Source: an uncultured Marvinbryantia sp.
Lineage (GTDB): Bacteria; Bacillota; Clostridia; Lachnospirales; Lachnospiraceae
NCBI GenBank assembly: GCA_934394985.1
Contig: CAKRRF010000008.1
Coordinates: 10,728-74,727, forward strand
Length of the DNA: 64,000 nucleotides
Reading direction: 5' to 3'
A program made the translations under genes and the position numbers. The notes beneath the pieces were generated by a model that saw nothing but the letters and a program-made list of their open reading frames with translations, did not search any database and was not told the origin of the DNA. This document shows, piece by piece, positions 33,444 through 63,125 of this stretch; position 1 is the stretch's first letter, and every line of letters begins with the position of its first letter.

Positions 33444-33523
33444 GATGTATCAGATATTCTGTAATGGAATGCGAAACGGGAAGGAAATAAAATAGTAATA
33501 GTAAAATAATGGAGGAATTACAG

Positions 33524-34045
33524 ATGACAAAGTGGGAAAAATGTGTTGCATTTCACGGACATGAGTGTGGAGGTCTTACAATAGGATATAAAGCTGCAAT
33601 TTATGCAGAAAAACTGTTAAACATTACCTTCTCGGAAGATGAAGATGTGGTTTGCATTTCAGAAAATGATGCCTGTGGTGTAGATGCCATTCAGGTGCTT
33701 CTCGGATGCAGCGTTGGGAAAGGTAACTTGTTGTTTCATATGAGAGGAAAACAGGCGTTTTCATTTTATAACAGAAAAACAGGAAAATCGGTAAGACTTG
33801 TTCTGAAAGAAAAACCAGAAGGAATGTCGAGAGAAGAATCTTTTGCATATTATCAGAATACAGAACCGAAAGACATGTTTGAAGTGAAAGAGACTACTAT
33901 CAAATTGCCGGAAGAAGCAAGAATCTTTGATTCTTATAAATGTGAATGCTGTGGAGAAATGACAGGAGCAAACTGGATCCGAATAGCCGGCGGAAAAAAG
34001 ATCTGTCTGGACTGCTATAAAACCTATGATCGTTTTCAGGTGTAA
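33524..34045 (+). CDS. FmdE-like protein with C-terminal zinc finger
   Basis: 173 residues. The N-terminal FmdE domain (formylmethanofuran dehydrogenase subunit E-like, PF02663) has the FHGHECGG motif (about 10-17), a family metal site, and ENDACGVDAIQVLLGCSVGKGNL (about 48-70) with further Cys. The C-terminus has a C4 ribbon, CECCGEM...CLDCY (about 143-167), as in DksA/TraR fingers. In methanogens FmdE accompanies Mo/W formylmethanofuran dehydrogenase, absent here. Bacterial versions are of unknown function and often lie near molybdopterin or formate genes. ATG 33524 is chosen because GGAGGA lies eight bases upstream; the ATG at 33509 overlaps that RBS. Confidence 0.82.
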   Translation: MTKWEKCVAFHGHECGGLTIGYKAAIYAEKLLNITFSEDEDVVCISENDACGVDAIQVLLGCSVGKGNLLFHMRGKQAFSFYNRKTGKSVRLVLKEKPEGMSREESFAYYQNTEPKDMFEVKETTIKLPEEARIFDSYKCECCGEMTGANWIRIAGGKKICLDCYKTYDRFQV

Positions 34046-34065
34046 AATGCTTTTTGCACTTTAAC

Positions 34066-34136
34066 AGAGAACACCTTTCTTTGTTGGTATTAGCCTGGTC
34101 GCTAAATACGATATCATAAAGAGGTGTTCTTTTTTT
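34066..34136 (+). terminator. Intrinsic terminator after the FmdE-like gene
   Basis: AGAACACCTTT on the left pairs with AAAGAGGTGTTCT on the right (one mismatch), followed by seven T. Confidence 0.75.
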
Positions 34137-34184
34137 GCGTCCGGCTGCATAAAACGTTACTCTGGAACCTGAGAGTGTTAGAGG

Positions 34185-34337: not shown

Positions 34338-35351
34338 ATGAACAAGAACTGGAAGAAGTATATAACAGGATTAGCGACCGCATCACTGGCGACAGGATTT
34401 TTTTCTGTGGGAGTAATGGCAGATGACAGTATTGACCTGAAGCTGAGCCTGACACCGTCTGAGAGCAGTGTATGGATGGTAGCTGTGGATTATTTTAAGG
34501 AACAGGTAGAAGAGAAGACAGATGGCAGATATACCATTTCTGTTTATCCAAGTGAACAGCTGGCAGGTGGAGATCTGGTAAAAGGTGTGGAGATGCTTCT
34601 CACAGGATCTACCGATATTGCACTGAATTCCGTTATGAATACTTCCAGCTTTGATCCGAGATTGACTGTAACCAGTATGCCATGGATTTTTGAAAACGGT
34701 TATGACAGCGTAGACGAATATGTATTTCATGGGGAAGGGGCAGATGCCATTAAAGATATCTTCACAGAATTGGGTGCAGTACCGCTGGCGCTGGGAGATA
34801 ATGGATTCCGTCAGATTACCAACAATACCAGACCAATTACCACCCCGGAAGATCTGGACGGGCTGAAGATTCGTACTCCGGCCAACAGTATGTACATTGA
34901 TCTGTTCACCTTATTTGGAGCAGACCCGACATCCATGAATTTTTCAGAAGTATATACGTCTCTTCAGAACGGAACCATTGACGGACAGGAAAATCCATAC
35001 GATACCATCCGCAGCGCACAGATCCAGGAAGTATCTAAGTATCTGACAGAATGGAATTATTCTTATGATATATTTGTGCTCAGTCTGAGCCAGAAGCTGT
35101 GGGACAGCTTAAGTGATGAAGACAAAGAGATCTTCCAGACAGCAGCAGAAGAGGCGTGCCAGAAAGAGATCGAAACTTACCGTGAGAATGAGGCTTCTAT
35201 TGCAGATGAATTTGAAGCAGCTGGTGTGGAAATTACCAAACTGACAGATGAGCAGATACAGACATTTAAAGACGCGGCTGCGCCGATTTATGAATCATAT
35301 AAAGATCAGATTGGCGAAGATCTGTTCGCAAAATTTGGATATACATTTTAA
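34338..35351 (+). CDS. dctP: TRAP transporter solute-binding protein (DctP family)
   Basis: 337 residues. Signal peptide MNKNWKKYITGLATASLATGFFSVGVMA, cleaved before DDS. The mature protein has the DctP pattern: AVDYFKEQVEEKTDGRYTISVYPSEQLAGG, then DNGFRQITNNTRPITTPEDLDGLKIRTP with the conserved Arg that binds a carboxylate, and FSEVYTSLQNGTIDGQENPYDTI. The ligand is therefore likely an organic acid. The frame reads upstream to 34245, but ATG 34338 with AAGAGGA fits. It heads an operon in which two E1 enzyme genes separate it from its membrane partners. Confidence 0.93.
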   Translation: MNKNWKKYITGLATASLATGFFSVGVMADDSIDLKLSLTPSESSVWMVAVDYFKEQVEEKTDGRYTISVYPSEQLAGGDLVKGVEMLLTGSTDIALNSVMNTSSFDPRLTVTSMPWIFENGYDSVDEYVFHGEGADAIKDIFTELGAVPLALGDNGFRQITNNTRPITTPEDLDGLKIRTPANSMYIDLFTLFGADPTSMNFSEVYTSLQNGTIDGQENPYDTIRSAQIQEVSKYLTEWNYSYDIFVLSLSQKLWDSLSDEDKEIFQTAAEEACQKEIETYRENEASIADEFEAAGVEITKLTDEQIQTFKDAAAPIYESYKDQIGEDLFAKFGYTF

Positions 35352-35398
35352 GAAACGACAGAAAATGACAACATAGACAGTGATAAGTGAGGAACGAT

Positions 35399-36385
35399 AT
35401 GAGCATTACAAAAGAAAAAGCGTTACAGCTTTATGAAAAAATGTGTACCATACGGGAATTTGAAGAATTAGTAAAGAAAGAATACCTGGCAGGCAACCTG
35501 CCAGGATTCGTTCATTTATACATAGGAGAAGAAGCTGTGGCTTCCGGAATCTGTGGTGCCTTAGAAGCAAGTGATTATATAGAAAGCACTCATCGAGGAC
35601 ATGGTCACTGTATTGCAAAAGGCGCAGATCTGAATCGTATGATGGCAGAGATCTATGGCAGAAAAACCGGTCTTTGCAAAGGCAAAGGTGGTTCCATGCA
35701 TATCGCAGACTTTGAAGTGGGTATGCTAGGAGCGAACGGAGTCGTTGGGGGTGGTTATAACCTGGCAGCAGGTGCAGCTCTTGCCAACAGCAAAATTTTG
35801 CATAATCAGAAAGTATCGGTCGTATTTTTTGGAGATGGGGCATCCAACAGAGGAACGTTCCATGAAGCTGCCAATGTATCCAGCGCATGGAAGCTTCCGA
35901 TTATCTTTGTAAATGAAAATAACGGGTGGGCATCCACTACCCCATATCAGACCACTACCGCAGTGGAAAATATATCGGATTATGCAGCAGCTTATCATAT
36001 GCCTGCCAGAATCGTATCCGGGAAAAATGTATTCGAAGTGTACAAGGCAGCCGTAGAAGCTGTGGAGCGGGCAAGAAAAGGCGAAGGTCCGACATTCATT
36101 GAAGCAAAAACATTTCGTGTGGAAGGACATTTTGTAAAGGATGCCGAAAAATACAGAACCAGAGAATATGTGGCAGAAGAGCAGAAGAAGAATGATCCTT
36201 TTGCAGAATTTGAACGGATCGTGTTACAGCCAAATGAGGAAGTAGAGAGTGTGATTACGAAAGAGGAACTGGATGCAATCCGACAGAAAAGTCATGAAAG
36301 AGTACTGGAAGCGCAAAAGTTTGCACTGGAAAGCTCTGTGCCGGATCCAGAAGAATATCTGGATGATGTATATGATGCGAGATAA
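35399..36385 (+). CDS. TPP-dependent E1 component, alpha subunit (acetoin/2-oxoacid dehydrogenase type)
   Basis: 328 residues. THRGHGHCIAKG, GRKTGLCKGKGGSMHIAD and GMLGANGVVGGGY are typical of the acetoin dehydrogenase/bacterial PDH E1-alpha group. The TPP-Mg motif is GDGASNRGTFHEAANVSSAWKLP...NENN (about 145-175). With the beta subunit it should bind TPP and decarboxylate a 2-oxoacid or cleave an acyloin. No E2 or E3 gene is in the window, so the electron or acyl acceptor is unknown. ATG 35399 is preferred to GTG 35387. It lies between dctP and dctQ, linking its substrate to the imported compound. Confidence 0.9.
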   Translation: MSITKEKALQLYEKMCTIREFEELVKKEYLAGNLPGFVHLYIGEEAVASGICGALEASDYIESTHRGHGHCIAKGADLNRMMAEIYGRKTGLCKGKGGSMHIADFEVGMLGANGVVGGGYNLAAGAALANSKILHNQKVSVVFFGDGASNRGTFHEAANVSSAWKLPIIFVNENNGWASTTPYQTTTAVENISDYAAAYHMPARIVSGKNVFEVYKAAVEAVERARKGEGPTFIEAKTFRVEGHFVKDAEKYRTREYVAEEQKKNDPFAEFERIVLQPNEEVESVITKEELDAIRQKSHERVLEAQKFALESSVPDPEEYLDDVYDAR

Positions 36386-36444
36386 TACCTGTTTTGCATT
36401 GGACGGTATTTCCGGACATTAAGATAAAATTTGAGGAGAACGAT

Positions 36445-37425
36445 ATGAGAACGATAACATTTGGACAGGCGACTCTGGAAGCGATGAGTGAAGAAATGAA
36501 AAAAGATCCTACCGTGTTTGTCATGGGAGAGGATCTGGCTCGTCAGGGAGGAATCTTCGGACAGTTCACGGGACTGGCAGATGAATTTCCGGGAAGAGTC
36601 ATAGATACGCCAATATCCGAGACATTTCTGGCAGGCGGAGGCGTAGGCGCGGCACTGGCAGGAGCAAGACCGGTTGTAGATCTTCATTATGCAGATTTTT
36701 GCAGTGTGTGTATGGATGAAATTTTCAATCAGATGGCAAAGGCAAGATATATGTCTGGCGGGCAGGCAAAGATTCCGCTGGTACTTCGTGCACCGGATGG
36801 GCTGATTACGCAGGGAGCAGCACAGCATTCTCAGTCTGTAGAATCCTGGTTTGTACATATTCCGGGACTGAAGGTGGTGGCACCATCCAATGCGGCAGAT
36901 GCCAAGGCAGTATTAAAAGCAGCAATCGAAGATGACAATCCGGTCATTTATTTTGAGCATAAAAATCTGTTTAAGATGTCTTTTGAAGTACCGGAAATCG
37001 AAGAGGAAGAACCATATCAGATCGGAAAGGCAAAGATTCGTAAAAAAGGAAAGGATATCACGCTGGTGTCTTATTCCAAAACGATGTTGACGGTATTAGA
37101 AGCAGCAAAGCAACTGGAAGAAGCCGGAATATCAGCAGAAGTCATTGATCTGATTACGTTATCTCCGTGGGATAAAGAAACAGTTCTGGAATCTGTGAAG
37201 AAAACGGGACACCTGTGTATCTGTCATGAGGCGGTAAAACAGGGAGGATTTGGAGCAGAGATTGCGGCGACAGCAGCGGAAGAAGCCTTTGCAGACTTAA
37301 AAGGACCGGTATTGCGTCTGGCAGCACCATTTACCCCGGTGCCATTTGCACCATCTATGGAGGATAAAGTACGTGTTCATGTGGAAGATATCGTGAATGC
37401 AGTAAAAAATACACTGAGAGGATAA
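36445..37425 (+). CDS. TPP-dependent E1 component, beta subunit
   Basis: 326 residues, transketolase pyrimidine-binding plus C-terminal domain. TFGQATLEAMSEEMKKDPTVFVMGEDLARQGG is the family start with the catalytic Glu region. DTPISETFLAGGGVGAALAGARPVVDLHYADF and TQGAAQHSQSVESWFVHIPGLKVVAPSNAADAKAVLKAAI are conserved in AcoB/PdhB. AUG start 36445 with GAGGAG upstream. Forms the heterotetramer with the alpha subunit. Confidence 0.9.
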   Translation: MRTITFGQATLEAMSEEMKKDPTVFVMGEDLARQGGIFGQFTGLADEFPGRVIDTPISETFLAGGGVGAALAGARPVVDLHYADFCSVCMDEIFNQMAKARYMSGGQAKIPLVLRAPDGLITQGAAQHSQSVESWFVHIPGLKVVAPSNAADAKAVLKAAIEDDNPVIYFEHKNLFKMSFEVPEIEEEEPYQIGKAKIRKKGKDITLVSYSKTMLTVLEAAKQLEEAGISAEVIDLITLSPWDKETVLESVKKTGHLCICHEAVKQGGFGAEIAATAAEEAFADLKGPVLRLAAPFTPVPFAPSMEDKVRVHVEDIVNAVKNTLRG

Positions 37426-37429
37426 GAAG

Positions 37430-37921
37430 ATGAAACAGATAGGAAAAATACTGGAAAAAATCATTGATTATCTGGAGGAAGGTCTGATTGTTGCAGGCCT
37501 TCTCTTTATGACAGTAATGAATTTTGCCAATGTTATCAGCAGATATTTTCTGCACAAATCCATTTCTTATACGGAAGAGGTGGTAGTGATTGTATTTGTG
37601 TGGGTAACTATGCTGGGAATATCAGCAGGATATAAAAGAAATGCACATCTGGGAATGAGTTTTATTACAGATAAGTTATCAGAAAAAGGAAAGAAAGCGG
37701 CACTGCTTATATCAGCCATCTGTTCTCTGATATTGATTTATTTTATGCTGAGATATGGAATTGAGATGGTTCAGAACCAGATCCGTTTTCACAGCAAAAC
37801 AACAGCTCTTCGCTGGCCGACTTACATCCAGGGACTGGCATTGCCGGTGGGAGCAGTATTTATGGGAATCCGGACTCTGCAGGCTACTTATCAGCAGTTA
37901 AAGGGGGATAAACAGAAATGA
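37430..37921 (+). CDS. dctQ: TRAP transporter small membrane subunit (DctQ)
   Basis: 163 residues, four membrane helices. FANVISRYFLHKSISYTEEVVVIVFVWVTMLGISAGYKRNAHLGM matches the DctQ signature (N..RY......W.EE......W....G). It starts four bases after the E1-beta stop codon, and its own stop overlaps the start of dctM (ATGA). It mediates contact between the large subunit and DctP. Confidence 0.92.
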   Translation: MKQIGKILEKIIDYLEEGLIVAGLLFMTVMNFANVISRYFLHKSISYTEEVVVIVFVWVTMLGISAGYKRNAHLGMSFITDKLSEKGKKAALLISAICSLILIYFMLRYGIEMVQNQIRFHSKTTALRWPTYIQGLALPVGAVFMGIRTLQATYQQLKGDKQK

Positions 37922-39192
37922 TGGCAGTTGTATTATTTGGATTATTTTTTCTGATGGTATTTTTCAATATTCCGGTGGCAGTCGCTCTGGGAGTATCCAG
38001 TCTGGCAGGGCTTTCCATGGGAGGCTTTACGCTTACTACACTGACAGATACCATGTATTCTGCAATCGGAAAATTTACCCTGCTTGCCATTCCGTTTTTC
38101 ATTCTGGCAGGTGTGATTATGGAATATGCAGGTATTTCCAGAAGACTGGTGCAGTTTGCAAAAGTGTGCGTTGGACATCGTAAAGGCGGACTGATCTCCG
38201 TAGTGGTAATTGTTTCCTGCTTCTTTGCAGCCATTTCCGGTTCTGGTCCGGCAACTGTGGCAGCACTTGGATCCATTTTGATTCCGGCTATGGTAGAATC
38301 TGGATATGATGTGGGAATGTCTACTGCATTAATGAGTGCGTCCGGAGCCATCGGAATTGTGATTCCTCCAAGTATTGCATTTGTAATCTATGCATCCATC
38401 TCAGGAAGCTCGGTGGGAAAGCTGTTTGCAGGTGGTATTATTCCGGGTATTCTGATGGGAGTATCTTACGTAATAGCAGCTATGATCTGCTCCAGAAAAA
38501 GTGATATTAAGCCACAGCCAAAAGCCTCAAAGGCAGAAATATGGGCGGCGTTTAAGGATGCGGTCTGGGGACTGCTTACACCAGTCATCATTCTGGGCGG
38601 AATCTATGGAGGGATCTTTACTGCGACAGAATCAGCAGGTGTAGCGATTGTGTATGGACTATTTGTGGGGATTGTGATATACAGAGAAATCAAGATCCGA
38701 GATCTGTGGAGACTGTTTGTCGATGCAGCGGTTTCCTCTGGTACAGTATTGTATATCGTGGCCTGCGCCAGTGTTTTTGCATGGATTCTGACTACCAGCC
38801 ATATTGCAACGGATATGTCTTCTGCGCTGATGGAGGTAAGTAACAATAAATATGTTTTACTTTTGATTATCAACCTGATTTTCCTGATAGCAGGATGTTT
38901 TTTAGATGCCAGCTCTGCATTTTACATTCTGGTACCGATTGTACTTCCAATTGCCAATGCCTTAAATGTAGATCCGATTCATCTGGGTGTGATGCTTACG
39001 ACCAATATGGCGATTGGTCTGGTTACCCCACCTGTTGGTATCAATCTATACGTGGGATGCAGTATTTCGAAAATACCAGTGGCAGAAATCTGTAAAAAGA
39101 TCATACCATTTGTAGTAGCGGGTATTGTAACCTTGTTGCTTATCGTATTTGTGGAACCAATCAGTATGTTTTTGCCGAACCTGATGCATTAA
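37918..39192 (+). CDS. dctM: TRAP transporter large membrane subunit (DctM)
   Basis: 424 residues, about twelve membrane helices. Conserved blocks include FFNIPVAVALGVSSLAGL, FTLLAIPFFILAGVIMEYAGISRRLV, AAISGSGPATVAALGSILIPAM and SGAIGIVIPPSIAFVIYASISGSS. The C-terminal half has TNMAIGLVTPPVGINLYVG. It drives substrate uptake with a sodium or proton gradient. Confidence 0.94.
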   Translation: MMAVVLFGLFFLMVFFNIPVAVALGVSSLAGLSMGGFTLTTLTDTMYSAIGKFTLLAIPFFILAGVIMEYAGISRRLVQFAKVCVGHRKGGLISVVVIVSCFFAAISGSGPATVAALGSILIPAMVESGYDVGMSTALMSASGAIGIVIPPSIAFVIYASISGSSVGKLFAGGIIPGILMGVSYVIAAMICSRKSDIKPQPKASKAEIWAAFKDAVWGLLTPVIILGGIYGGIFTATESAGVAIVYGLFVGIVIYREIKIRDLWRLFVDAAVSSGTVLYIVACASVFAWILTTSHIATDMSSALMEVSNNKYVLLLIINLIFLIAGCFLDASSAFYILVPIVLPIANALNVDPIHLGVMLTTNMAIGLVTPPVGINLYVGCSISKIPVAEICKKIIPFVVAGIVTLLLIVFVEPISMFLPNLMH

Positions 39193-39205
39193 GGAGAAAA
39201 GAAAC

Positions 39206-40246
39206 ATGACAAGAAAAGAACTTTTGATCAAGGCGATAAATTTTGAAGAAGTACCGAGAGTTCCGGTAAGTACTTTATCAGGAGCTACCTGGGCAGTGAA
39301 GCAGGAAGGAATTTCACCGGAAGCGCTCCTTCGCCTGCCAGATGCAGGGGCGCAGATGATTTTGGATACCTGTGAAAAACTGAATGTAGATATTGTATAC
39401 GGAGGAAGAGCCATTCCTCATATTATTCTTCGCGCCATGGGCGGTGAGATCAACAATTCCAGAGTGGGACTTCCTGGGGAAGTGATCAGACAGCCACTGC
39501 AGAAACTGGAAGACATTCATAACTGGACAGTAGAGCAGGTCATGGAAAATCTTCGTAAAGATGAAGAATATCAGCTTTTATTGAAACAGACCAGAATGAT
39601 TGCAGAAAAGACAAAGGGAGAACGGTTTGTAGGAGTGGGAAGCTTTGGACCGTTTACTACAGCGGCCCAGCTGGCAGGCGTGAATGAATTCATGATGTAT
39701 CTGGGAGATGAGGATGAAGAGAAACTGGTGAAAGAGGTCCTGGAATTCTCTGAAGAAGTGGTGTATCAGCTGACTGTGGATTTTCTGGAAGCAGGAGGAG
39801 ATCTGGTCTATATTGCGGAACCGGTATCTTCCGGAGACCTGATCAGCGAAGAGAATTTTGAAACTTATGCGCTGCCTTATCTGAAAAAGTTAAATGACCG
39901 GTTGTCTGAAAAGTGTCCATATATGCTTCTGCATATATGTGGAAAAACGATGGAGCGCATTGATGCTTTAAAGGATAGTGGAATTGCCATTTTTTCAGTG
40001 GACAGTCTGGATCTGGAAGAAGCACTGAAGCGTGCGGAAGGGAAAATTACAATTATGGGTATGTTAAGTCCGGTGAGAGTACTGGAAAAGGAAAGTGCCG
40101 GGGAGATTTATCAGAAAGCATTGGATCTGGTCAGGACTGCAGGTTTGTCAGGAGGATTTATTCTTGCACCGGGATGTGATCTTACACCAGATACCCCATA
40201 TGAACATATAGAAGCCATGGTACGAGCCGTATCAGGAAAGGAATAA
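39206..40246 (+). CDS. MtaA/UroD-family zinc methyltransferase
   Basis: 346 residues of the uroporphyrinogen decarboxylase/MtaA/CmuA fold, not a haem enzyme by context. Zinc-type ligands are present as His243 and Cys245 (LLHICGKT) and Cys324 (LAPGCDL), the H-x-C...C arrangement of corrinoid-dependent methyltransferases such as MtaA. UroD's substrate Arg pair near the N-terminus is not evident. Expected role: transfer of a methyl group between a corrinoid protein or methylated substrate and a thiol or tetrahydrofolate. No corrinoid protein is encoded in this operon. It is 14 bases after dctM with AAGGAG upstream, and followed by an aminotransferase gene five bases later. Confidence 0.82.
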   Translation: MTRKELLIKAINFEEVPRVPVSTLSGATWAVKQEGISPEALLRLPDAGAQMILDTCEKLNVDIVYGGRAIPHIILRAMGGEINNSRVGLPGEVIRQPLQKLEDIHNWTVEQVMENLRKDEEYQLLLKQTRMIAEKTKGERFVGVGSFGPFTTAAQLAGVNEFMMYLGDEDEEKLVKEVLEFSEEVVYQLTVDFLEAGGDLVYIAEPVSSGDLISEENFETYALPYLKKLNDRLSEKCPYMLLHICGKTMERIDALKDSGIAIFSVDSLDLEEALKRAEGKITIMGMLSPVRVLEKESAGEIYQKALDLVRTAGLSGGFILAPGCDLTPDTPYEHIEAMVRAVSGKE

Positions 40247-40250
40247 ACAT

Positions 40251-41426
40251 ATGCCGTCACTCAGTACAAGAACCGAACAGTTTACGGATTCTGTCATTCG
40301 TCGAATGACCAGAATCTCAGCAAAATATGGAGCAATTAATCTGTCTCAGGGATTTCCGGATTTTGATCCGCCAAAGGAACTCCTGGATCGACTGGCACAG
40401 GTCGCTTATGAAGGGCCTCATCAATATGCACTGACCTGGGGAGCGCAGAATTTCCGTGAAGCACTTGCCAGAAAACAGGAGCATTTTTCCGGCAGAGCAG
40501 TCGATCCTAATAAAGAAATTGTGGTGACCTGCGGAAGCACAGAGGCCATGATGGCAGCAGTAATGTCTGTGGTGAATCCGGGAGAGAAAGTGATTGTCTT
40601 TTCTCCTTTTTATGAGAATTATGGAGCAGATGCCATTCTTTCCGGAGCAGTGCCAATTTATGTGCCATTAAATCCACCTGCATTTGACTTTGACCCGGAA
40701 GTGCTGGAAGATGCATTCCGACAGGGCGCAAAGGCACTGATACTTTGTAATCCGTCCAATCCATGCGGAAAAGTATTTACTTATGAAGAAATGAAACAGA
40801 TCGCAGATCTGGCAATCAAATATGATACATTTGTCATTACCGATGAGGTGTATGAACACATTTTGTACAAGCCCAATAAACATATTTATATGAATACCCT
40901 GCCTGGAATGTGGGAAAGAACGATTACCTGTAATTCTCTTTCCAAGACCTACTCCATTACCGGATGGCGTCTGGGCTATGTGATTGCTCCGGAAGAGGTG
41001 ACCGAACGGGTAAAAAAGGTACATGATTTCCTGACGGTAGGAGCTGCAGCACCGCTGATGGAAGCGGCAGTAGTTGGTTTGACTATGCCTGATTCATATT
41101 ATGAGGATCTGCAGAAGCATTATCAGCATATGAAAGATCTCTTTATCGGAGGCTTAAAAGATCTGGGCTTTACCTTTACTGATCCGCAGGGTGCATATTA
41201 CGTCATGATGGATATCAGCAAGTGGAAAAAGAAAGAAGAAACAGATGTGGAGTTTTGCGAATGGCTGGCAGCAGAAGTCGGCGTAGGAGCAGTGCCGGGA
41301 TCCAGCTTTTTCCGGGAAGATGTGAATCACCTGATCCGGTTCCATTTTGCGAAGCAGGATGAGACATTGAAGGGTGCACTGGACAGACTGGCAAAGCTGG
41401 AAGCAAAGGCGGCCGGAAGAAGATAA
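40251..41426 (+). CDS. PLP-dependent class I aminotransferase (methionine/kynurenine/aspartate type)
   Basis: 391 residues, fold type I. INLSQGFPDFDPP is the motif of the YbdL/KAT subgroup, which accepts methionine and aromatic 2-oxoacids. PLP-binding features are NPSNPCGKVF, ITDEVYEHILY (Asp and Tyr) and the Schiff-base Lys in NSLSKTYSITGWRLGY (about 236). LIRFHFA carries the C-terminal Arg for the substrate carboxylate. Role: interconversion of an amino acid and a 2-oxoacid, plausibly feeding the E1 enzyme in the same operon. A bidirectional terminator follows. Confidence 0.88.
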   Translation: MPSLSTRTEQFTDSVIRRMTRISAKYGAINLSQGFPDFDPPKELLDRLAQVAYEGPHQYALTWGAQNFREALARKQEHFSGRAVDPNKEIVVTCGSTEAMMAAVMSVVNPGEKVIVFSPFYENYGADAILSGAVPIYVPLNPPAFDFDPEVLEDAFRQGAKALILCNPSNPCGKVFTYEEMKQIADLAIKYDTFVITDEVYEHILYKPNKHIYMNTLPGMWERTITCNSLSKTYSITGWRLGYVIAPEEVTERVKKVHDFLTVGAAAPLMEAAVVGLTMPDSYYEDLQKHYQHMKDLFIGGLKDLGFTFTDPQGAYYVMMDISKWKKKEETDVEFCEWLAAEVGVGAVPGSSFFREDVNHLIRFHFAKQDETLKGALDRLAKLEAKAAGRR

Positions 41427-41436
41427 ATACAAAATA

Positions 41437-41486
41437 AGGCATGGACTGTCGCACGGATTATTTCGTGTGACAGCTCATGCCTTTTA
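41437..41486. terminator. Bidirectional terminator after the TRAP operon
   Basis: AAGGCATG..CTGTCGCACG (41437-41456) pairs with CGTGTGACAG..CATGCCTTT (41465-41485), lying between convergent genes. Confidence 0.85.
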
Positions 41487-41525
41487 AATTGTTCCGTAAG
41501 AGCGCGGGAAATCGATTGTAACAGC

Positions 41526-42209: not shown

Positions 42210-43733
42210 GTGCGAGGAGTAGAAACAAGAATACAGGAGATTCGTCATGCTATTTTTACGGAAGTGGCAAAAATGGCGTATGACACAAAGAGTCCTGCGG
42301 TAAAGACTGTGGAAGAGATACCCTATCACATTATACCGGGAGAGGTCGGCAGTTTTCGAAGCGATGTTTTTCTGGAACGGGCTATCGTAGGAGAACGGGT
42401 GCGGCTGGCCATGGGACTGCCCTGCAGAGATGCAACAGAGCATGCACCGATATCAGATAATATTGAACTGGCAGATAAGCCAGAGACGTATTATACGCCA
42501 CCATTGATCAATGTGATCAAATTTGCCTGCAATGGCTGTCAGGAAAAAAGAGTACTGGTAACAGATGGATGTCAGGGCTGTCTGGCACATCCATGTGTGG
42601 AGATTTGTCCGAAAGGGGCGATTACTCTAGACCGGACAAACGGCCGCTCAGTGATCGATCAGAAAAAGTGCGTGAAATGTGGCAGATGTGCAGATGTGTG
42701 TTCGTATCATGCCATTATTGTGCAGGAACGACCATGTGCAGCAGCCTGTGGAATGGACGCAATCCGTTCTGATAAGAACGGAAAAGCAGAGATTGATTAT
42801 GAAAAATGTGTATCCTGTGGACAGTGTCTGGTGAATTGTCCATTTGGAGCGATTTCGGATAAATCCCAGATTTTCCAGGTTATCCGTGCCATCCAGTCAG
42901 GTGAGCAGGTATATGCGGCACTGGCACCGGCATTTGTGGGACAGTTTGGGGCAAAGGTAACGCCAGGAAAACTTCGGGCAGCCATGAAAGAGCTTGGATT
43001 TGCTGATGTATTTGAAGTGGCAGTCGGAGCAGATCTCTGCGCCGAACAGGAAGCGGAAGATTTTATAAAAGAGGTTCCGGAAAAACTGCCATTTATGGCG
43101 ACATCATGTTGTCCGGCATGGTCTGTTATGGCAAAAAAGCTGTTCCCGGATTATGCAAACTGTATTTCTATGGCGCTGACACCAATGACTTTGACAGCGC
43201 GACTGATTAAAAAGCATAATAAAAATGCGAAAGTTGTTTTTATTGGTCCATGTGCAGCAAAAAAGTTGGAAGCTATGCGTAAATCAGTAAAGAGTGAAGT
43301 GGACTTTGTGCTGACATTTGAAGAAATGACGGGAATCTTTGCAGCAAAAAATATAAAAGTGGAATTACTGGAAGAAGATCCGGAAGGTGTCAGTGATGCA
43401 TCCGCTGATGGACGAAATTTTGCGGTATCTGGTGGTGTGGCAAAGGCAGTGGAAAATGTCATACATGAGAAATACCCGGATATGGAAGTGAAGATTGCCA
43501 ATGCAGAAGGTCTGAAGGAATGCAGAAAGCTCCTGACTGTGGCAAAAGCAGGAAAGTATAACGGATATCTTTTGGAAGGGATGGCCTGTCCGGGAGGATG
43601 CGTAGCAGGAGCAGGAACGATGCAGTCTATAAAAAAATCGCAGGTTGCAGTGAATAAATATGCGTCTACAGCAACTCATAAGGTCGCCAGTGAAACGGAA
43701 TATGTCAAAGAACTGGAAAAACTGGTGGATTAG
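42210..43733 (+). CDS. [FeFe] hydrogenase, group B-like, monomeric
   Basis: 507 residues. Ferredoxin-like Cys motifs run from about 107 to 212 (CNGCQ, CQGCLAHPCVEICP, CVKCGRCADVC, CVSCGQCLVNCP), giving several [4Fe-4S] clusters. The H-cluster domain follows with L1 TSCCPAW (298-304), L2 GPCAAKKLEA (346-355) and L3 EGMACPGGCVAGAG (456-469). The GPC form of L2 and the PGGCVAGAG form of L3, instead of MPC and GGGQP, point to group B. It would exchange electrons between reduced ferredoxin and protons during fermentation, in the cytoplasm. Start is GTG with AGGAGGA upstream. Thirteen bases separate it from the binding-protein gene. Confidence 0.92.
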   Translation: MRGVETRIQEIRHAIFTEVAKMAYDTKSPAVKTVEEIPYHIIPGEVGSFRSDVFLERAIVGERVRLAMGLPCRDATEHAPISDNIELADKPETYYTPPLINVIKFACNGCQEKRVLVTDGCQGCLAHPCVEICPKGAITLDRTNGRSVIDQKKCVKCGRCADVCSYHAIIVQERPCAAACGMDAIRSDKNGKAEIDYEKCVSCGQCLVNCPFGAISDKSQIFQVIRAIQSGEQVYAALAPAFVGQFGAKVTPGKLRAAMKELGFADVFEVAVGADLCAEQEAEDFIKEVPEKLPFMATSCCPAWSVMAKKLFPDYANCISMALTPMTLTARLIKKHNKNAKVVFIGPCAAKKLEAMRKSVKSEVDFVLTFEEMTGIFAAKNIKVELLEEDPEGVSDASADGRNFAVSGGVAKAVENVIHEKYPDMEVKIANAEGLKECRKLLTVAKAGKYNGYLLEGMACPGGCVAGAGTMQSIKKSQVAVNKYASTATHKVASETEYVKELEKLVD

Positions 43734-43746
43734 AGGAGACGGCAAA

Positions 43747-44748
43747 ATGAACAGAAAAAAGAGCATTGGAAGAGATGGGCTGCTGACAGCTGTGGCAGTG
43801 AGCAGTATGATAATCTGGAATGGGATGAGTGCCATGGCGGAAGATGCTGTGACGATCATGGCATTAAAAGGTCCGACTGCAATGGGGATGGTTTCATTTA
43901 TGAAGCAGTCAGATCAGGGAGAGATCACCGATGAGGAGTACAAGTTTCAGATAGCGGCTTCTCCGGATGAGGTAACACCGGCAATTGTACAGGGAACAGC
44001 AGATATTGCAGCAGTTCCGGCAAATCTTGCCAGTGTGCTCTATCAGAAAACAGATGGTGGAGTACAGGTGCTTACGATCAATACGCTGGGTGTATTATAT
44101 CTGGTGGAAAACGGAACGCAAATTCAGGATATTTCTGACCTGAAAGGAAAAACGATTTATGCCAGTGGAAAAGGCGCCACACCGGAATATGCCTTAAACT
44201 ATATTTTAAAGGAAAATGGTCTGACACCCGGAGAAGATGTACAGATTGAGTGGAAAAGTGAGCATACGGAATGCGTGGCGGCACTGACAGAGCATAAAGA
44301 TGCAATTGCTTTGCTTCCACAGCCATTTGTGACTACCGCACAGAGCAAACATGAATCTCTGCGTGTGGCGCTGGATCTGACGGAAGAATGGGACAGCATC
44401 CAGGAAAAGAATGGAGGAAACAGCAGTCTGGTGACAGGAGTGACAGTTGTGAGAACAGAGTTTGCCTTGGAATATCCGGAGATAGTGGAAGATTTTCTGG
44501 AACGCTATCAGGAGTCGGCTGATTATGTAAATGCCCATACCGAAGAAGCAGCAGAACTGATCGGTGATTACGACATTGTCCCGGAAGCAATTGCGAAAAA
44601 AGCACTTCCGGCATGTAATATCGTATATATAGACGGAAGTGAGATGAAAGAAAAGCTTTCCGGTTATCTGGAAGTTCTGGAGCAGGAAAATCCGCAGTCT
44701 GTAGGCGGAGCACTTCCGGAAGATGATTTCTATTATGATGCAGAATAA
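43747..44748 (+). CDS. ABC transporter substrate-binding protein, SsuA/ThiY/PhnD-like
   Basis: 333 residues, exported. A signal peptide (about 1-33, ending SAMA before EDAV) is followed by a type II periplasmic-binding fold: VTIMALKGPTAMGMVSFM at the start, IVQGTADIAAVPANLASVLYQK (about 80-101), ISDLKGKTIYASGKGATPEYALNYILKENGL (about 130-160). This resembles the NMT1/SsuA and PhnD groups that bind sulfonates, thiamine precursors or phosphonates; the ligand cannot be told. The ATG at 43747 has GAGGAG upstream; the longer frame from 43660 lies inside the hydrogenase gene. The next gene is its permease-ATPase. Confidence 0.85.
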   Translation: MNRKKSIGRDGLLTAVAVSSMIIWNGMSAMAEDAVTIMALKGPTAMGMVSFMKQSDQGEITDEEYKFQIAASPDEVTPAIVQGTADIAAVPANLASVLYQKTDGGVQVLTINTLGVLYLVENGTQIQDISDLKGKTIYASGKGATPEYALNYILKENGLTPGEDVQIEWKSEHTECVAALTEHKDAIALLPQPFVTTAQSKHESLRVALDLTEEWDSIQEKNGGNSSLVTGVTVVRTEFALEYPEIVEDFLERYQESADYVNAHTEEAAELIGDYDIVPEAIAKKALPACNIVYIDGSEMKEKLSGYLEVLEQENPQSVGGALPEDDFYYDAE

Positions 44749-46141
44749 AAGAAAAAAACCAGGTAAAATGTGCTGGTGGGCAGTTGTGTTCTGGCTGCTG
44801 GCATGGCAGATATTGAGTATGTGGATTGGACAGGAGATACTGATGGTATCTCCTGTTACTACAGGAAAAAGACTGATCTGGCTGATTTGTGATGTCCGGT
44901 TCTGGAAAATTGTCCTACATTCAACGATACGAATCATGGGAGGATTTTTACTGGGAATTTTTGCCGGAAGTGGCGTAGCAGTGCTGGCGTTTCAATATAA
45001 AAGGATAGAAGAACTGTGTTATCCTATGATATGTGTGATGAAAACAACTCCGGTAGCATCTGTGATTATTTTGTTATTAATGTGGATATCTTCAGGAAAT
45101 CTGTCTGTATGCATTGTGTTTCTGATGACATTTCCGATATTATACACGAATGTATTGGAAGGACTGCAGCATCTGAGCCCAAAATTGAATGAAATGGCGG
45201 AGGTGTTTGAGCTTCCTGTCTGGGTAAGGCTGAGATGGATCGAAATTCCTCAGCTGATGCCTTATATAAAAGCCGGCTGTGTGCTTGGAATCGGACTGGC
45301 GTGGAAGGCAGGAACGGCGGCAGAAGTAATCGGGATTGCAGATGGGACGATTGGGGAAATGCTGTATCAGGCTAAGATTTATCTGGAAACAGCAGATTTG
45401 CTGGCATGGACGGTTATGATTCTTGTGCTGAGTTACGTGTTTGAGAAAGTGTTTCTTGGAATGCTGGATCTGGCAGGAGAAAGAATGAAAAGAATGCAGA
45501 TATCAGAATCCAGAAGAGCGAATAAGAGAAAAAACATATCGGAAGAAGAACAGGTAGCACAGCAGGATATTGTGTTGGATCACCTGCGTAAAAGCTATGG
45601 GGATCATCACGTAATTCAGGATCTGTCACAGATATTTCCGTGTGGACAGATAACCTGTATCATGGCTCCGTCCGGCTCTGGAAAGACCACATTGCTTCGA
45701 CTGCTTATGGGACTGGAGACACCGGATAGCGGAAGCATAGGAGGTATGGATGGGCGAAAGAAAAGTGCTGTTTTTCAGGAACAGATTTTTGGTGAGGATC
45801 TGAGTGTCTATGCCAATATTCGGATTGTGCGAAAAAGAAAACTCTTTGAGCCGGAAAAGCAGGAATACGAAAAAATCAAAGAAGAATTGGAAAAAGTCGG
45901 TTTGTCTGAATGCATAGATCAGAAGATAAAAGAACTATCTTTTGGGATGCGGCAGAGAGTGGCACTGGTGAGAGCGTTCTATGCAGACTGGGATGTGCTC
46001 TTTCTGGATGAGCCATTTCACGGTCTGGATAAAAGTACCAGAGAACTGGTAATGGAATATACCAAAAGAAAGTGCAGTGGGAAACAAGTGCTGTTTGTCA
46101 CACATGATGCAGAAGAAAAGAAACTGGTCATCGGAAAATGA
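44723..46141 (+). CDS. Fused ABC importer: TauC/SsuC permease joined to SsuB-type ATPase
   Basis: 472 residues. Residues about 15-255 form a six-helix BPD_transp_1 permease, with LHSTIRIMGGFLLGIFAGSG and the EAA loop EMAEVFELPVWVRLRWIEIPQL (about 157-178). After a charged linker (about 255-280) comes a complete ATPase: Walker A APSGSGKTT (315-323), Q-loop FQEQ, signature LSFGMRQR (405-412, with Phe at the usual first Gly), Walker B VLFLDEP, and switch His in VTHD. In most nitrate/sulfonate/thiamine-type importers these are separate genes. It overlaps the binding-protein gene by 26 bases; starts at 44735 or 44738 are also possible. The stop codon lies in a terminator hairpin. Confidence 0.88.
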   Translation: MISIMMQNKRKKPGKMCWWAVVFWLLAWQILSMWIGQEILMVSPVTTGKRLIWLICDVRFWKIVLHSTIRIMGGFLLGIFAGSGVAVLAFQYKRIEELCYPMICVMKTTPVASVIILLLMWISSGNLSVCIVFLMTFPILYTNVLEGLQHLSPKLNEMAEVFELPVWVRLRWIEIPQLMPYIKAGCVLGIGLAWKAGTAAEVIGIADGTIGEMLYQAKIYLETADLLAWTVMILVLSYVFEKVFLGMLDLAGERMKRMQISESRRANKRKNISEEEQVAQQDIVLDHLRKSYGDHHVIQDLSQIFPCGQITCIMAPSGSGKTTLLRLLMGLETPDSGSIGGMDGRKKSAVFQEQIFGEDLSVYANIRIVRKRKLFEPEKQEYEKIKEELEKVGLSECIDQKIKELSFGMRQRVALVRAFYADWDVLFLDEPFHGLDKSTRELVMEYTKRKCSGKQVLFVTHDAEEKKLVIGK

Positions 46142-46155: not shown

Positions 46156-46341
46156 AAATCATAGATAAAGAATGTGGTGGCAGAACCGGAGGATGGTATC
46201 GAATAAAGATACGATTCTTTTTTGATGAATGATAAGTTCCGTTTTAGATAAATTCGTATCTGATTCATTCCGAAAAGGAGTAGCCAGTCATGAGAATAAT
46301 TTGTATAATTAGTATAAATATCCGGTTGGGAGATGAAAAAA

Positions 46342-47184
46342 ATGGAAAAATTGACGAATCTTCATGGGCAATTACTGGAAGGTTGTATCTGGGATGAGTG
46401 TTCCGAGAAGTTATATTTTGTAGATATTGAATGCCGAAAAATATACTGTCTCAGCCCGGATTGTGAAATCCTGAACCAGATGGAGCTGCCGGACTATGTC
46501 AGCGACCTTGTGCTGAAAAAGGATGGGACTTTAATCGCTGCATTGCCGGATGGCCTGTATCATGTGGATTTTGACAAACGGACAGCAGAAAAAGTCATGG
46601 AAAGCTGTCTGCCAGATGGCATCCGTTACAACGATGGCAAATGCGATCCGAAAGGACGCTTATGGCTTGGCAGTATGGCCATGGCGCAGGATGAATCGGC
46701 ACCTCATGCAGGCGCATTATTTTGTATCGAAAAAGATCAGATCAAGACGATTTATTCTGGATTTACCATACCGAACGGTCTGGCATGGGATACGAAAAAA
46801 GCATTGTTTTATCATGTGGATACGGCAACGGATAAGGTGGATCGTTATCGGATGACAGAGGATGGACGGATTACGGAGAAGAGGACAGCCATTGATTTGA
46901 AGAAGGAAAAAGGCTCGCCGGATGGCATGTGCATGGACAGTGAAGGACATCTGTGGATTGCCATGTGGGGCGGATATCAGGTGATCTGCGCGGATCCGAC
47001 CACCGGAGAAGTGTTAAAGAGAATTCCTGTGCCGGATGCCAATGTCAGCTGCTGCTGTTTTGGGGGAAAGAGCAAAACACAGCTCTATATTACAACTGCA
47101 AGAGATGACACTGGCAATGGCGGAGAGCTATATGTAGAAGAGATGCAGATAACAGGAGGCGAAGTGTACAGATATGGGGATTAG
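46342..47184 (+). CDS. SMP-30/gluconolactonase family lactonase
   Basis: 280 residues, six-bladed propeller of the SMP-30/regucalcin/LRE family. Metal-site elements: LEGCIWDECSEKLYFVDIECRKIY (Glu near the start), LPDGIRYNDGKCDPKGRLWLGSM (Asn and Asp), PNGLAWDTKKALFYHVDTATDKV, and GSPDGMCMDSEGHLWIAMWGG (catalytic Asp). It would hydrolyse an aldonolactone to the free acid, following the SDR encoded next. ATG 46342 has GGGAG nine bases upstream; ATG 46333 is too close to it. First gene of a four-enzyme operon. Confidence 0.88.
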   Translation: MEKLTNLHGQLLEGCIWDECSEKLYFVDIECRKIYCLSPDCEILNQMELPDYVSDLVLKKDGTLIAALPDGLYHVDFDKRTAEKVMESCLPDGIRYNDGKCDPKGRLWLGSMAMAQDESAPHAGALFCIEKDQIKTIYSGFTIPNGLAWDTKKALFYHVDTATDKVDRYRMTEDGRITEKRTAIDLKKEKGSPDGMCMDSEGHLWIAMWGGYQVICADPTTGEVLKRIPVPDANVSCCCFGGKSKTQLYITTARDDTGNGGELYVEEMQITGGEVYRYGD

Positions 47185-47941
47185 GAAGACAGCACTGGTA
47201 ACAGGCGCAGCAAAAGGGATTGGAAGGCAGATTGCTTACTGTATGGCAGAGGCAGGCTATAATGTCATTGTGAATTATCACAGCAACAAAGCAGCAGCCG
47301 AAGAACTATGCAGGGAAATGGAAAAGTTTGGTGTGCAGACCATGACAGTATATGCTGATATGGGAAAGGTTTCTGATATTGAAGAAATGTACCGACAGGT
47401 ATTTGAAGTCTTTCCGGTGGTAGATGTACTGGTGAACAATGCAGGAATCAGCAGTGAAGTGTATTTCCTGGATGCTACCGAAGAGATGTTTGATCAGATG
47501 ACCGCGATTGACTGGAAGGGCGTCTACTTCAGCAGCCAGATCGCAGCAAAGAAGATGATTGAACAGAAGGTGAAGGGGACAATTATCAATCTTTCATCAA
47601 ATCAGATCAACGGATGCTGGCCGAGAGCCACCATTTATGCACCGAATAAAGCGGCTATTTCCAAATTTACTAAGAATGCAGCTATGGAGTTATCACTGCA
47701 CGGCATTCGTATGGTAGCAATTGCACCGGGTTATACCGATGTGGGATGGGAGCCGGGAGATATCCGTTTGAAAGCGGCAGAAAGACTGCCGTTTGGCAGA
47801 TTTGCAACGACCACAGAGATTGCAAAAGGAGTCGTATATCTGGCATCGGAAGAAGCGGCCTATATTACAGGAACCACACTGGTGATGGATGGCGGCGCTA
47901 CCCTTCCGGTAGTTGCAGCCAATGATTTCGTGGAGGATTAA
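47174..47941 (+). CDS. Short-chain dehydrogenase/reductase, probable sugar 1-dehydrogenase
   Basis: 255 residues, classical SDR. Cofactor motif TGAAKGIG (10-17), NNAG (88-91), catalytic Ser about 141 (INLSS) and YAPNK (Tyr155, Lys159), C-terminal GTTLVMDGGATLP. It overlaps the lactonase gene by 11 bases. Linked to a lactonase and an IlvD/Edd dehydratase, it most likely oxidises an aldose at C1 to the lactone. Confidence 0.88.
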   Translation: MGIRKTALVTGAAKGIGRQIAYCMAEAGYNVIVNYHSNKAAAEELCREMEKFGVQTMTVYADMGKVSDIEEMYRQVFEVFPVVDVLVNNAGISSEVYFLDATEEMFDQMTAIDWKGVYFSSQIAAKKMIEQKVKGTIINLSSNQINGCWPRATIYAPNKAAISKFTKNAAMELSLHGIRMVAIAPGYTDVGWEPGDIRLKAAERLPFGRFATTTEIAKGVVYLASEEAAYITGTTLVMDGGATLPVVAANDFVED

Positions 47942-47944
47942 GCA

Positions 47945-49615
47945 ATGAGCGAATATTATAACAGTTTGCTGCAGGGAGATAAAGGCGCATTAAAAAGAGC
48001 ACTGTACAAGGCGATGGGGTTTACGGATGAAGCTCTTGGCAAACCGTTGATCGCGATCGTGAATACCTACACCAATGCCACACCGGGACATTACAACATC
48101 AATGAACTGTGTGAGCAGGCTAAGAAAGGCATCGAGGCAGCGGGAGGAACGGCCATGACATTTGGAGATATTGCTCCATGTGATGGAATCGCAGAAGGAC
48201 ATGAGGGTATGCGTTACATTCTGCCATCCAGAGATCTGATTGCTTCAACCGTAGAATGTATGGTTCGTGCGCACCGTTTTGACGGACTTGTTTTGCTGGG
48301 ATCCTGTGACAAAATTGTACCGGGACTTCTGATGGCAGCAGCCAGACTGGATATTCCGGCGGTATTTTGTAACAGTGGTCCGATGATGCCGGCCTGTTAT
48401 AAAGGAAAACATTACGATGGAAATATTGTGACAGAAGCCGTTGGCTGGAAGCAGCGCGGCGAGATAGATGAAGAGGAATTCCGTAAGATTGAGAATCTGG
48501 CAGAGCCGTGTGCAGGCTCCTGTGCCATGCTTGGAACCGCAAACACTATGGGATGTCTGGCAGAGGCAATGGGCATGAGCCTTCCGGGAAGTGCGGTGAT
48601 TCCTGCTGTTTATGCAAAACGACTTCAGATGGCATATGAGACAGGACGGGCAGTCATGGGACTGGTGAAAAAAGGCATTACAGCCAGACAGGTGATGACA
48701 AAAGAAGCAATTGAAAATGCGATTATGGTGCTGATGGCCATGGGTGGTTCTACCAATGGGATCATGCATCTGCAGGCAATTCATAAAGAAGTAGGTCTGG
48801 GCCATCTTCCACTGGAAGTCTTTGACCGTTTCAGCAAGCGGATTCCACAGATTGCTTCCGTTTATCCGGCATCTCCATATGATATGGTGGACTTTTATGA
48901 AGCAGGTGGAGTACCTGGGGTGATGAAAGAACTGGAACCGCTTCTTCACGGAGACTGTATCACAGCCAGTGGAAAGACGGTAAAAGAGAATCTTCAGCAT
49001 ACAGAGTATTCCACATTCCGGGAGGTAATCCGCACTGTGGCAGAACCATTCCATTCGGATGGAGGTGTAGCGATTCTGACCGGTAATCTGGCACCACTTG
49101 GAGCCGTGGTAAAGCCGGCAGCGATCCCGGAACATCTGATGACTGTGACTGGGAAAGCCAAAGTATATCAAAGCGAGCAGGAAGCCTGTGAGGCAATTCT
49201 GGCCGGAGAGGTACAGCCAAATACCATGGTAGTTCTTCGTTATGAAGGACCAAAGGGAGGACCGGGGATGCCGGAGATGTATCGTCCGATGAAGTGTCTG
49301 GAAGGAATGAATCTGTCGGACAGCTGTACGATTGTCACAGATGGAAGATTCTCCGGATCCAACCGGGGATGCTTTGTGGGACATATCTCACCGGAAGCAT
49401 ACGAAGGCGGCAATCTGGCACTGGTAGAAGATGGAGATGAAATCACCATTGATGTGCCGAATCGCAAGATCACCCTCCACGTAAGCGATGAGGAACTGGA
49501 AAAAAGAAGAACGTTATGGAAGCCGGTGGAAAAGCAACTTCCGGATGGTTACCTTAATATATATCGAAAAATCACAAAATCTGCGGCAGAAGGCGCCGTG
49601 ATGGAAATGGAGTAA
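47945..49615 (+). CDS. IlvD/Edd family sugar-acid dehydratase
   Basis: 556 residues, the size of dihydroxyacid and aldonate dehydratases. Iron-sulfur and metal-site residues are visible: Cys79 in IAPCDGIAEGHEGMRY, Cys121 and Lys123 in GSCDKIVPG (the Lys usually carbamylated), and Cys193 in EPCAGSCAMLGTANTMG. The C-terminal part has the VTDGRFSGSNRG motif with the catalytic Ser. Four bases separate it from the SDR gene. In this setting it probably removes water from an aldonate to give a 2-keto-3-deoxy acid, rather than serving branched-chain amino acid synthesis. Confidence 0.9.
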   Translation: MSEYYNSLLQGDKGALKRALYKAMGFTDEALGKPLIAIVNTYTNATPGHYNINELCEQAKKGIEAAGGTAMTFGDIAPCDGIAEGHEGMRYILPSRDLIASTVECMVRAHRFDGLVLLGSCDKIVPGLLMAAARLDIPAVFCNSGPMMPACYKGKHYDGNIVTEAVGWKQRGEIDEEEFRKIENLAEPCAGSCAMLGTANTMGCLAEAMGMSLPGSAVIPAVYAKRLQMAYETGRAVMGLVKKGITARQVMTKEAIENAIMVLMAMGGSTNGIMHLQAIHKEVGLGHLPLEVFDRFSKRIPQIASVYPASPYDMVDFYEAGGVPGVMKELEPLLHGDCITASGKTVKENLQHTEYSTFREVIRTVAEPFHSDGGVAILTGNLAPLGAVVKPAAIPEHLMTVTGKAKVYQSEQEACEAILAGEVQPNTMVVLRYEGPKGGPGMPEMYRPMKCLEGMNLSDSCTIVTDGRFSGSNRGCFVGHISPEAYEGGNLALVEDGDEITIDVPNRKITLHVSDEELEKRRTLWKPVEKQLPDGYLNIYRKITKSAAEGAVMEME

Positions 49616-49618
49616 AAC

Positions 49619-50308
49619 ATGATTACATGGAAAGATGACAACGAATTATTTGCGATGATGAAAAAAGAATTATATTCTGCAGTCATTGGCGATATCCTGG
49701 ATAAGATGAATTATCGTCATCAATTTCTTCCACAGCGGATTCAGCCAATGCGTGAAGAGATGATAGTGGCCGGAAGAGCCATGCCGGTACTGGAAGCAGA
49801 TGCATTTGAAGAATTGTCTGATGGACAGAATCCGATCATGAAAAAGAACTTTGGCCTGATGCTGGAAGCACTGGATGATCTGAAGGAAAATGAAGTCTAT
49901 ATCTGTAGTGGTTCTTCACCGAGCTATGCGCTGGTAGGAGAACTGATGTGCACCAGAATGAAGATCTTAAAAGCAGCAGGTGCAGTGGTAAATGGCTTCC
50001 ACAGAGATACCAGAGGCATTCTGGAACTGAACTTCCCATGCTTCTCCTATGGAAGATACGCACAAGATCAGGGACCAAGAGGAAAAGTCATTGATTATCG
50101 TGTGCCGATCGAGATGGATGGTGTCAGAATCAATCCTGGTGATATCATTTTCGGAGATCTGGATGGTGTTCTGGTGATTCCAAAAGAAGTGGAGACTGAA
50201 GTCATTCAGAAAGCTTACGAGAAAGCGACCGGAGAAAAGATGGTGGCGGAAGCGATCCGCGGTGGAATGAGTACGGTAGAGTCTTTTGCAAAACATGGAA
50301 TCATGTAA
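49619..50308 (+). CDS. RraA-like / HMG-aldolase family protein
   Basis: 229 residues of the RraA/4-hydroxy-4-methyl-2-oxoglutarate aldolase fold. GAVVNGFHRDTRGI (about 121-134) holds the Arg-Asp pair that binds pyruvate and metal in the aldolases. INPGDIIFGDLDGVLVIP (about 166-183) is the GD...D.DGVxxIP motif. A catalytic role is favoured over RNase E inhibition, because it ends an operon of sugar-acid enzymes. Proposed reaction: cleavage of a 2-keto-3-deoxy acid to pyruvate and an aldehyde. Confidence 0.85.
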   Translation: MITWKDDNELFAMMKKELYSAVIGDILDKMNYRHQFLPQRIQPMREEMIVAGRAMPVLEADAFEELSDGQNPIMKKNFGLMLEALDDLKENEVYICSGSSPSYALVGELMCTRMKILKAAGAVVNGFHRDTRGILELNFPCFSYGRYAQDQGPRGKVIDYRVPIEMDGVRINPGDIIFGDLDGVLVIPKEVETEVIQKAYEKATGEKMVAEAIRGGMSTVESFAKHGIM

Positions 50309-61709: not shown

Positions 61710-61781
61710 AATAGGTACACCTCCTGATAATTTGACTGAATCAAGTAAGTTCTTTGCTTCAAGAGTAAAGAATTGCCTGAT

Positions 61782-61795
61782 TGAAAGCGTTTTCA
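61782..61795. promoter_or_regulatory. LacI/CcpA-type operator 1
   Basis: TGAAAGCGTTTTCA, matching the cre consensus TGWAANCGNTNWCA at every position. It sits just downstream of the -10 box of the dlgD promoter, where bound repressor would block initiation. Confidence 0.8.
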
Positions 61796-61804
61796 ATATT
61801 TTTC

Positions 61805-63084: not shown

Positions 63085-63125
63085 ATAGAAAAATACATTG
63101 GAATATAAACAGGAGGAAACTTTTT

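Follow-up and report, generated by a model that had tools for sequence, protein, structure and literature searches.

A TRAP transporter operon with an E1 that lacks E2 and E3 in an uncultured Marvinbryantia looks like a remodelled form of a conserved transporter-dehydrogenase module

The window analyzed here is a stretch of 64,000 nucleotides from an uncultured Marvinbryantia species of the Lachnospiraceae (GenBank assembly GCA_934394985.1, contig CAKRRF010000008.1, positions 10,728 to 74,727 of the forward strand). Positions 34338 to 41426 of this window hold seven genes that combine a tripartite ATP-independent periplasmic (TRAP) importer with both E1 subunits of an acetoin/pyruvate-dehydrogenase-type complex, an MtaA-like protein and a class I aminotransferase. 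The operon looks like a remodelled form of a conserved module and not like a wholly new pathway. It is read here as descending from an acetoin/pyruvate-dehydrogenase-type complex linked to a TRAP importer, with E2 and E3 absent and an MtaA-like gene and a YbdL-type aminotransferase gene added. The whole explanation, chemistry included, is assigned a probability of about 0.5; its architecture and descent are well supported, its chemistry is not.

An earlier note on this DNA, made from its letters, had described seven tightly spaced genes on one strand followed by a terminator, a description borne out by Pfam matches, coordinates and gaps. On the forward strand, dctP for the solute-binding protein (34338..35351; Pfam DctP, 1e-78) is followed by E1-alpha (35399..36385; E1_dh, 5e-78), E1-beta (36445..37425; Transket_pyr and Transketolase_C), dctQ for the small permease (37430..37921; DctQ), dctM for the large permease (37918..39192; DctM), the MtaA-like gene of the UroD family (39206..40246; URO-D) and the aminotransferase gene (40251..41426; Aminotran_1_2). 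DctP, DctQ and DctM, the three parts of a TRAP transporter, are thus all present at full length. The operon runs from the dctP ATG at 34338 to the aminotransferase stop at 41426 with intergenic gaps of 47, 59, 4, -4, 13 and 4 nucleotides, and by eye a purine-rich, Shine-Dalgarno-like stretch precedes the ATG of each gene. E1-alpha starts at the ATG at 35399 and E1-beta most likely at the ATG at 36445, rather than at the longer GTG/TTG starts of the open reading frame (ORF) list. The terminator noted earlier is borne out by a strong hairpin at 41436..41483 (+). The fold computed for 41425-41495 has -34 kcal/mol and z -8.0; the U run is only four long (41482-41485), and a simple terminator scan did not list the hairpin. 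A second terminator-like hairpin (34065..34132, +) stands 3' of the upstream FmdE-type gene, where RNA of 34055-34140 folds at -24.9 kcal/mol (z -3.3). With the strong hairpin behind the operon and this one in front of it, the seven genes are probably a single transcript.

The descent of the operon is seen in other genomes. E1-alpha was searched for in 397 genomes from the family of G001, a Blautia metagenome-assembled genome (MAG), at E <= 1e-90, in a class sample of 391 at E <= 1e-100, and in 200 and six genomes from the families of G839 and G514. Matches came from 5/397, 4/391, 3/200 and 3/6 genomes, the last three all found already. Eight genomes have an E1-alpha at least 61% identical to that of the window (G481, G514, G590, G730, G406, G909, G948 and G986). 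G481, G514 and G590 share one family, G406 is in that of G001, and G909, G948 and G986 are in that of G839; G730 belongs to a family other than that of G514, and at least three families are represented in all. In all eight the E1 pair stands in one run with dctP, dctQ, dctM, E2 and E3. This strengthens the proposal that import and E1 action are probably one task. It also suggests that the TRAP-E1 pairing is generally the front of an ordinary-looking 2-oxoacid or acetoin dehydrogenase complex, since the closest placed relatives hold E2/E3 beside their TRAP genes. Co-regulated E2/E3 genes elsewhere, together with plain acetoin or pyruvate dehydrogenase activity, had been named as the outcome that would count against the original idea; half of this picture is present, in that the closest relatives carry E2/E3 beside TRAP genes, but the operon of the window does not.

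The arrangement of the module varies. In G481, G514 and G590 the order is regulator-E1-alpha-E1-beta-PCC gene-dctP-dctQ-dctM-E2-E3; a sigma-54 activator was identified by Pfam at L094 and a PCC (DUF296) domain at L094 and L095, the rest being judged by eye. A chemotaxis-receptor-like gene separates dctM from E2 in G730. G406 has the order short-chain dehydrogenase/reductase (SDR)-dctP-dctQ-dctM-E1-alpha-E1-beta-E2-E3-zinc alcohol dehydrogenase-lipoate ligase, and its DctP and DctM are far from those of the window (32 and 36% identity). Four operons that have all of E1, E2 and E3 encode a DctM 57-58% identical to the window's. A PCC/DUF296 gene goes with the TRAP genes of the Clostridia E1-E2-E3 operons L094, L095 and L140 (the last by eye) and, in divergent orientation, with those on an Alloyangia plasmid (L117, 4364-5194).

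The transporter and E1 also track each other when the search starts from DctP. A DctP profile, with at most five candidates scored per genome, matched 7/391 genomes at E <= 1e-90; the four best matches (404-430 bits) fall in exactly the four genomes that have this E1-alpha, and the next score 313 bits or below. This lower group (G795, G588 and G634) was not counted as the same module: the stretches fetched gave no match to E1-alpha, E2 or E3, and the neighbors are SDR genes, joined in G795 and G588 by transketolase-like genes. No TRAP gene was found within the 12-16 kb fetched around four loci whose E1-alpha is 48-52% identical (two in G197, one each in G200 and G229); at a fifth locus of that group, in G231, the contig ends and 2.4 kb were seen.

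In trees of both subunits, the window's E1 lies among relatives from complete complexes. A 21-row clade (100/100) contains its E1-alpha together with those of G406, G948, G986 and G909, all four with E2/E3 at the locus. In the E1-beta tree, the genomes with E2/E3 make up a group of nine rows (100/99), within which the window is the sister of the same four. Given this nesting, loss of E2 and E3 on the window's own line is the simplest reading, and it is one that we infer from the placement of the sequences. The operon itself encodes neither component by Pfam, as the earlier note had it, and Pfam found neither E2 or E3 domains nor a lipoyl or corrinoid-binding one in the 50 ORFs of the window that were scanned (49 of its 62 ORFs of at least 150 amino acids and one of 134 amino acids; the 13 others of that size overlap scanned genes, 63021-63482 only slightly, and shorter and window-edge ORFs lie outside the scan).

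A plain acetoin or 2-oxoacid dehydrogenase, with E2/E3 encoded elsewhere on the chromosome and an operon that was merely rearranged, would account for the same genes. All eight close relatives that were placed carry E2/E3, the E1 motifs are intact, and G197, which by RsmF ranks among the ten closest of the 397 genomes, has three E2 matches. Against this, PF00198 (E2) gave no match in the other nine of these ten or in the Blautia MAG G001, genomes whose completeness is not told; the same search was positive in 10/14 control genomes. The nearest genome is only 75% identical in RsmF, and the bearing of this result on the window's own genome is suggestive only. A changed loop in the window's E1-alpha clade also speaks against a plain complex, which on balance is judged unlikely.

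Apart from this loop, the E1 motifs are intact. E1-alpha keeps the GDG...NN thiamine-diphosphate motif and the loop His, and E1-beta keeps its Glu and His motifs; the roles of these residues are those of the human and Bacillus E1 enzymes. The loop GHFVGD reads GHFVKD in the window's E1-alpha, and GHFVKD or GHFVRD across its clade. Among 118 readable sequences of 120 listed homologues, the residue beside the loop His is Gly in 106, Lys in seven and Arg in five. The 12 with Lys or Arg are P0001-P0011 and P0030 (P0010 and P0030 are partial), one cluster of them represents 260 member sequences, and the six included in the tree form a seven-row clade with the window. In E1 enzymes the loop beside this His contacts the lipoyl domain. 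The change would fit a looser tie to E2, and the window's E1 looks active but altered. A bolder reading supposes that a Lachnospiraceae-like clade has an E2-free E1 which, with its changed loop, would act as a lone decarboxylase or carboligase on a TRAP-imported acid, coupled to transamination and to methyl transfer by a corrinoid protein encoded in trans; this is possible, though less likely than not.

The type of complex from which the E1 descends is harder to name. Both subunits are called pyruvate dehydrogenase by NCBIfam, E1-beta above its subfamily cut-off (340 vs 321) and E1-alpha below the equivalog cut-off (324 vs 394). E1s from operons with a 2,3-butanediol dehydrogenase score alike in the same models (335-344 and 338-346), and NCBIfam therefore does not separate the acetoin from the pyruvate type. 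E1-alpha matched 296 plasmid records, of which five loci were opened. Two combine a sigma-54 regulator with a 2,3-butanediol dehydrogenase and form distant, long branches in the tree; of the others, one has an E2 named acetoin dehydrogenase, one a pdhA and one no telling name. An acetoin type for the window's E1 is a lead. Among viral contigs, 65 pattern matches included no relative of E1-alpha. The known systems closest to hand are the AcoABCL acetoin dehydrogenase and pyruvate dehydrogenases with E1-alpha and E1-beta. The window shares their E1 homology and motifs, and its nearest placed relatives share E2 and E3; in three of these E1 is preceded by a sigma-54-type activator, recognized by Pfam in one and by eye in two. 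It differs in having TRAP genes around an E1 without E2/E3, the MtaA-like and aminotransferase genes, and the loop Lys.

Conservation of all seven genes together was seen in part. The TRAP-E1 pairing is conserved, but the combination with the MtaA-like and aminotransferase genes was found in one other genome only, without dctP and E1-alpha, and no tblastn match at 1e-6 to the MtaA-like or aminotransferase gene was found in the 10-20 kb stretches around the eight E1-E2-E3 operons. The one other operon of this type found is L001, in the Blautia MAG, with the order E1-beta remnant-dctQ-dctM-UroD-aminotransferase at 75, 72, 80, 65 and 87% identity. The UroD and aminotransferase genes thus belong to this operon type and have outlasted E1 in that genome. 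The locus lacks both dctP and E1-alpha; the whole MAG gave no E1-alpha match (PF00676 matches are weak, <= 33 bits) and no DctP profile match at 1e-90. E1-beta (L001, 7760-8177) is truncated at the 5' end and interrupted by a stop shortly before the 3' end, and the ORFs downstream are open. Either this operon is decaying or the MAG is misassembled. Extended to the window, the L001 remnant would favor an operon that lost E2/E3 first and whose remainder is on its way out. In the window, however, none of the seven genes is shortened and their motifs are intact, and the changed loop recurs in 12 listed homologues (two being fragments), with 260 sequences behind one cluster; general decay is very improbable.

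The binding protein offers a lead to the substrate. A single-sequence model of DctP (predicted local distance difference test score, pLDDT, 38.8) was discarded and replaced by an alignment-based one (pLDDT 91). The best PDB match by phmmer, profile and Foldseek is the TRAP protein 4p8b (H16_A1328), tied with 4pf8 by VIA-align. The window's DctP is only 32-33% identical to 4p8b, but among five aligned PDB chains this one alone shares both W46, fully conserved in alignment A3, and W239, almost fully conserved. Both Trp residues are kept in seven of the eight relatives, G406 being the exception. 4p8b was reportedly solved with acetolactate. An acetolactate-like acid as the substrate is a weak lead. 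PMC5812351 lists 2-acetolactate as one of the newly reported ligands of TRAP systems. One set of relatives points away from it. DctP matched 593 plasmid records, of which three were opened; these kin, at 38-39% identity on three Rhodobacterales plasmids, adjoin thiolase, acyl-CoA synthetase and SDR genes (one locus also has a gene named DUF296), neighbors that would fit a hydroxybutyrate-like acid.

According to the preferred reading, the dctP-E1-alpha-E1-beta-dctQ-dctM block stems from the conserved thiamine-diphosphate module of TRAP, E1, E2 and E3. DctP would catch a small hydroxy- or oxo-acid, the best lead being acetolactate or a close analogue, for import by DctQM. E1 would then cleave or decarboxylate the acid on thiamine diphosphate; acyloin chemistry on this cofactor would convert acetolactate into pyruvate and a hydroxyethyl unit. 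With no E2 to accept the acyl group, the bound unit may either leave as an aldehyde or be coupled to an acceptor. Any freed 2-oxo acid, for example pyruvate, could be converted into an amino acid by the aminotransferase. The MtaA-like protein would most likely methylate or demethylate a thiol together with a corrinoid protein encoded elsewhere.

The UroD-family protein is nearest the MtaA/CmuA subfamily in NCBIfam, below the curated cut-off (172 vs 235 bits), and matches PDB 4ay7. HemE, the uroporphyrinogen decarboxylase, was ruled out for this gene (53 bits vs a cut-off of 303). The HxC...C motif residues H243, C245 and C324, which correspond to the zinc ligands of MtaA, are kept in 117, 119 and 118 of 121 alignment rows. 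An alignment scan of 84,980 species genomes yielded 366 relatives; among the best 80, which were kept, only that of L001 (65%) exceeds 50% identity. Within the genus of that MAG, 2/64 genomes match at E <= 1e-50, namely the L001 genome itself and one at 35%. Relatives about 40% identical (L002, L006 and L007) can sit just downstream of a corrinoid-motif gene, and a corrinoid-protein motif was seen near 11 of the 80 loci with a strict pattern whose misses prove nothing. In the window, neither Pfam (50 ORFs) nor the motif revealed a corrinoid protein, and there is a single UroD-family gene.

The aminotransferase is nearest YbdL (1u08) among PDB matches and resembles the YbdL/kynurenine aminotransferase group across nearly its whole length, but it reaches the cut-off of none of its listed NCBIfam models; the third of these (342 vs a cut-off of 420) is a methionine aminotransferase model. 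YbdL itself is a methionine aminotransferase. These two added genes would suit a methyl-sulfur module, in which the aminotransferase makes 4-methylthio-2-oxobutyrate from methionine-like amino acids (or an acid of this kind comes in through the importer), E1 decarboxylates it, and the MtaA-like protein with an in-trans corrinoid protein handles the S-methyl group. PMC10418091 places methionine aminotransferases beside MtaA-like genes and proposes methyl-sulfur metabolism; there, type 1 mlp clusters are defined by at least Mlp2 and Mlp3 with a corrinoid protein and an activase. The window shares with these clusters the UroD family, the zinc motif and the neighboring methionine-aminotransferase-like gene, and differs from their definition in its single gene and the lack of a corrinoid protein among the scanned ORFs. 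Moreover, TRAP and E1 are paired in the eight E1-E2-E3 operons even though neither added gene is matched nearby. The methyl-sulfur module is quite unlikely as an explanation of the operon. The earlier suggestion of a methyl transfer step is plausible given the intact zinc motif and the published parallel, but no corrinoid partner was found in the window.

The statement that no described pathway has this gene set is not contradicted. No paper on a TRAP-linked dehydrogenase E1 was found, which is weak evidence of novelty since subscription journals are mostly outside the coverage. One TRAP family tied to E1-E2-E3 complexes across several Clostridia lineages narrows the substrate class for an orphan importer. 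The window, in turn, may supply a natural example of an E1 that works independently of E2. Relatives that do carry E2 can be set beside it, and the role of a single loop residue can be probed.

The surroundings of the operon hold several further groups of genes; a comparison of the window with Rfam gave nothing at gathering scores. Just upstream, 33509-34045 (+) encodes a protein that has an FmdE domain and, toward its C terminus, a weak match to a zinc finger, preceded by a LysR regulator that is nearest a selenium-metabolism LysR model, far below its cut-off. Downstream, 42210-46141 (+) holds a monomeric [FeFe] hydrogenase (above the NCBIfam cut-off); directly after it come genes for an SsuA/NMT1-type binding protein and for a permease fused to an ATPase. 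A row of gluconolactonase-like, SDR, IlvD/EDD-type dehydratase and RraA-like aldolase genes with an AraC regulator behind it follows at 46333-50308 (+) and may form an oxidative, non-phosphorylating sugar-acid pathway, although the dehydratase exceeds the cut-off for IlvD dihydroxy-acid dehydratase. Farther on, 60708-61796 (-) encodes a 3-dehydro-L-gulonate 2-dehydrogenase, above the NCBIfam cut-off.

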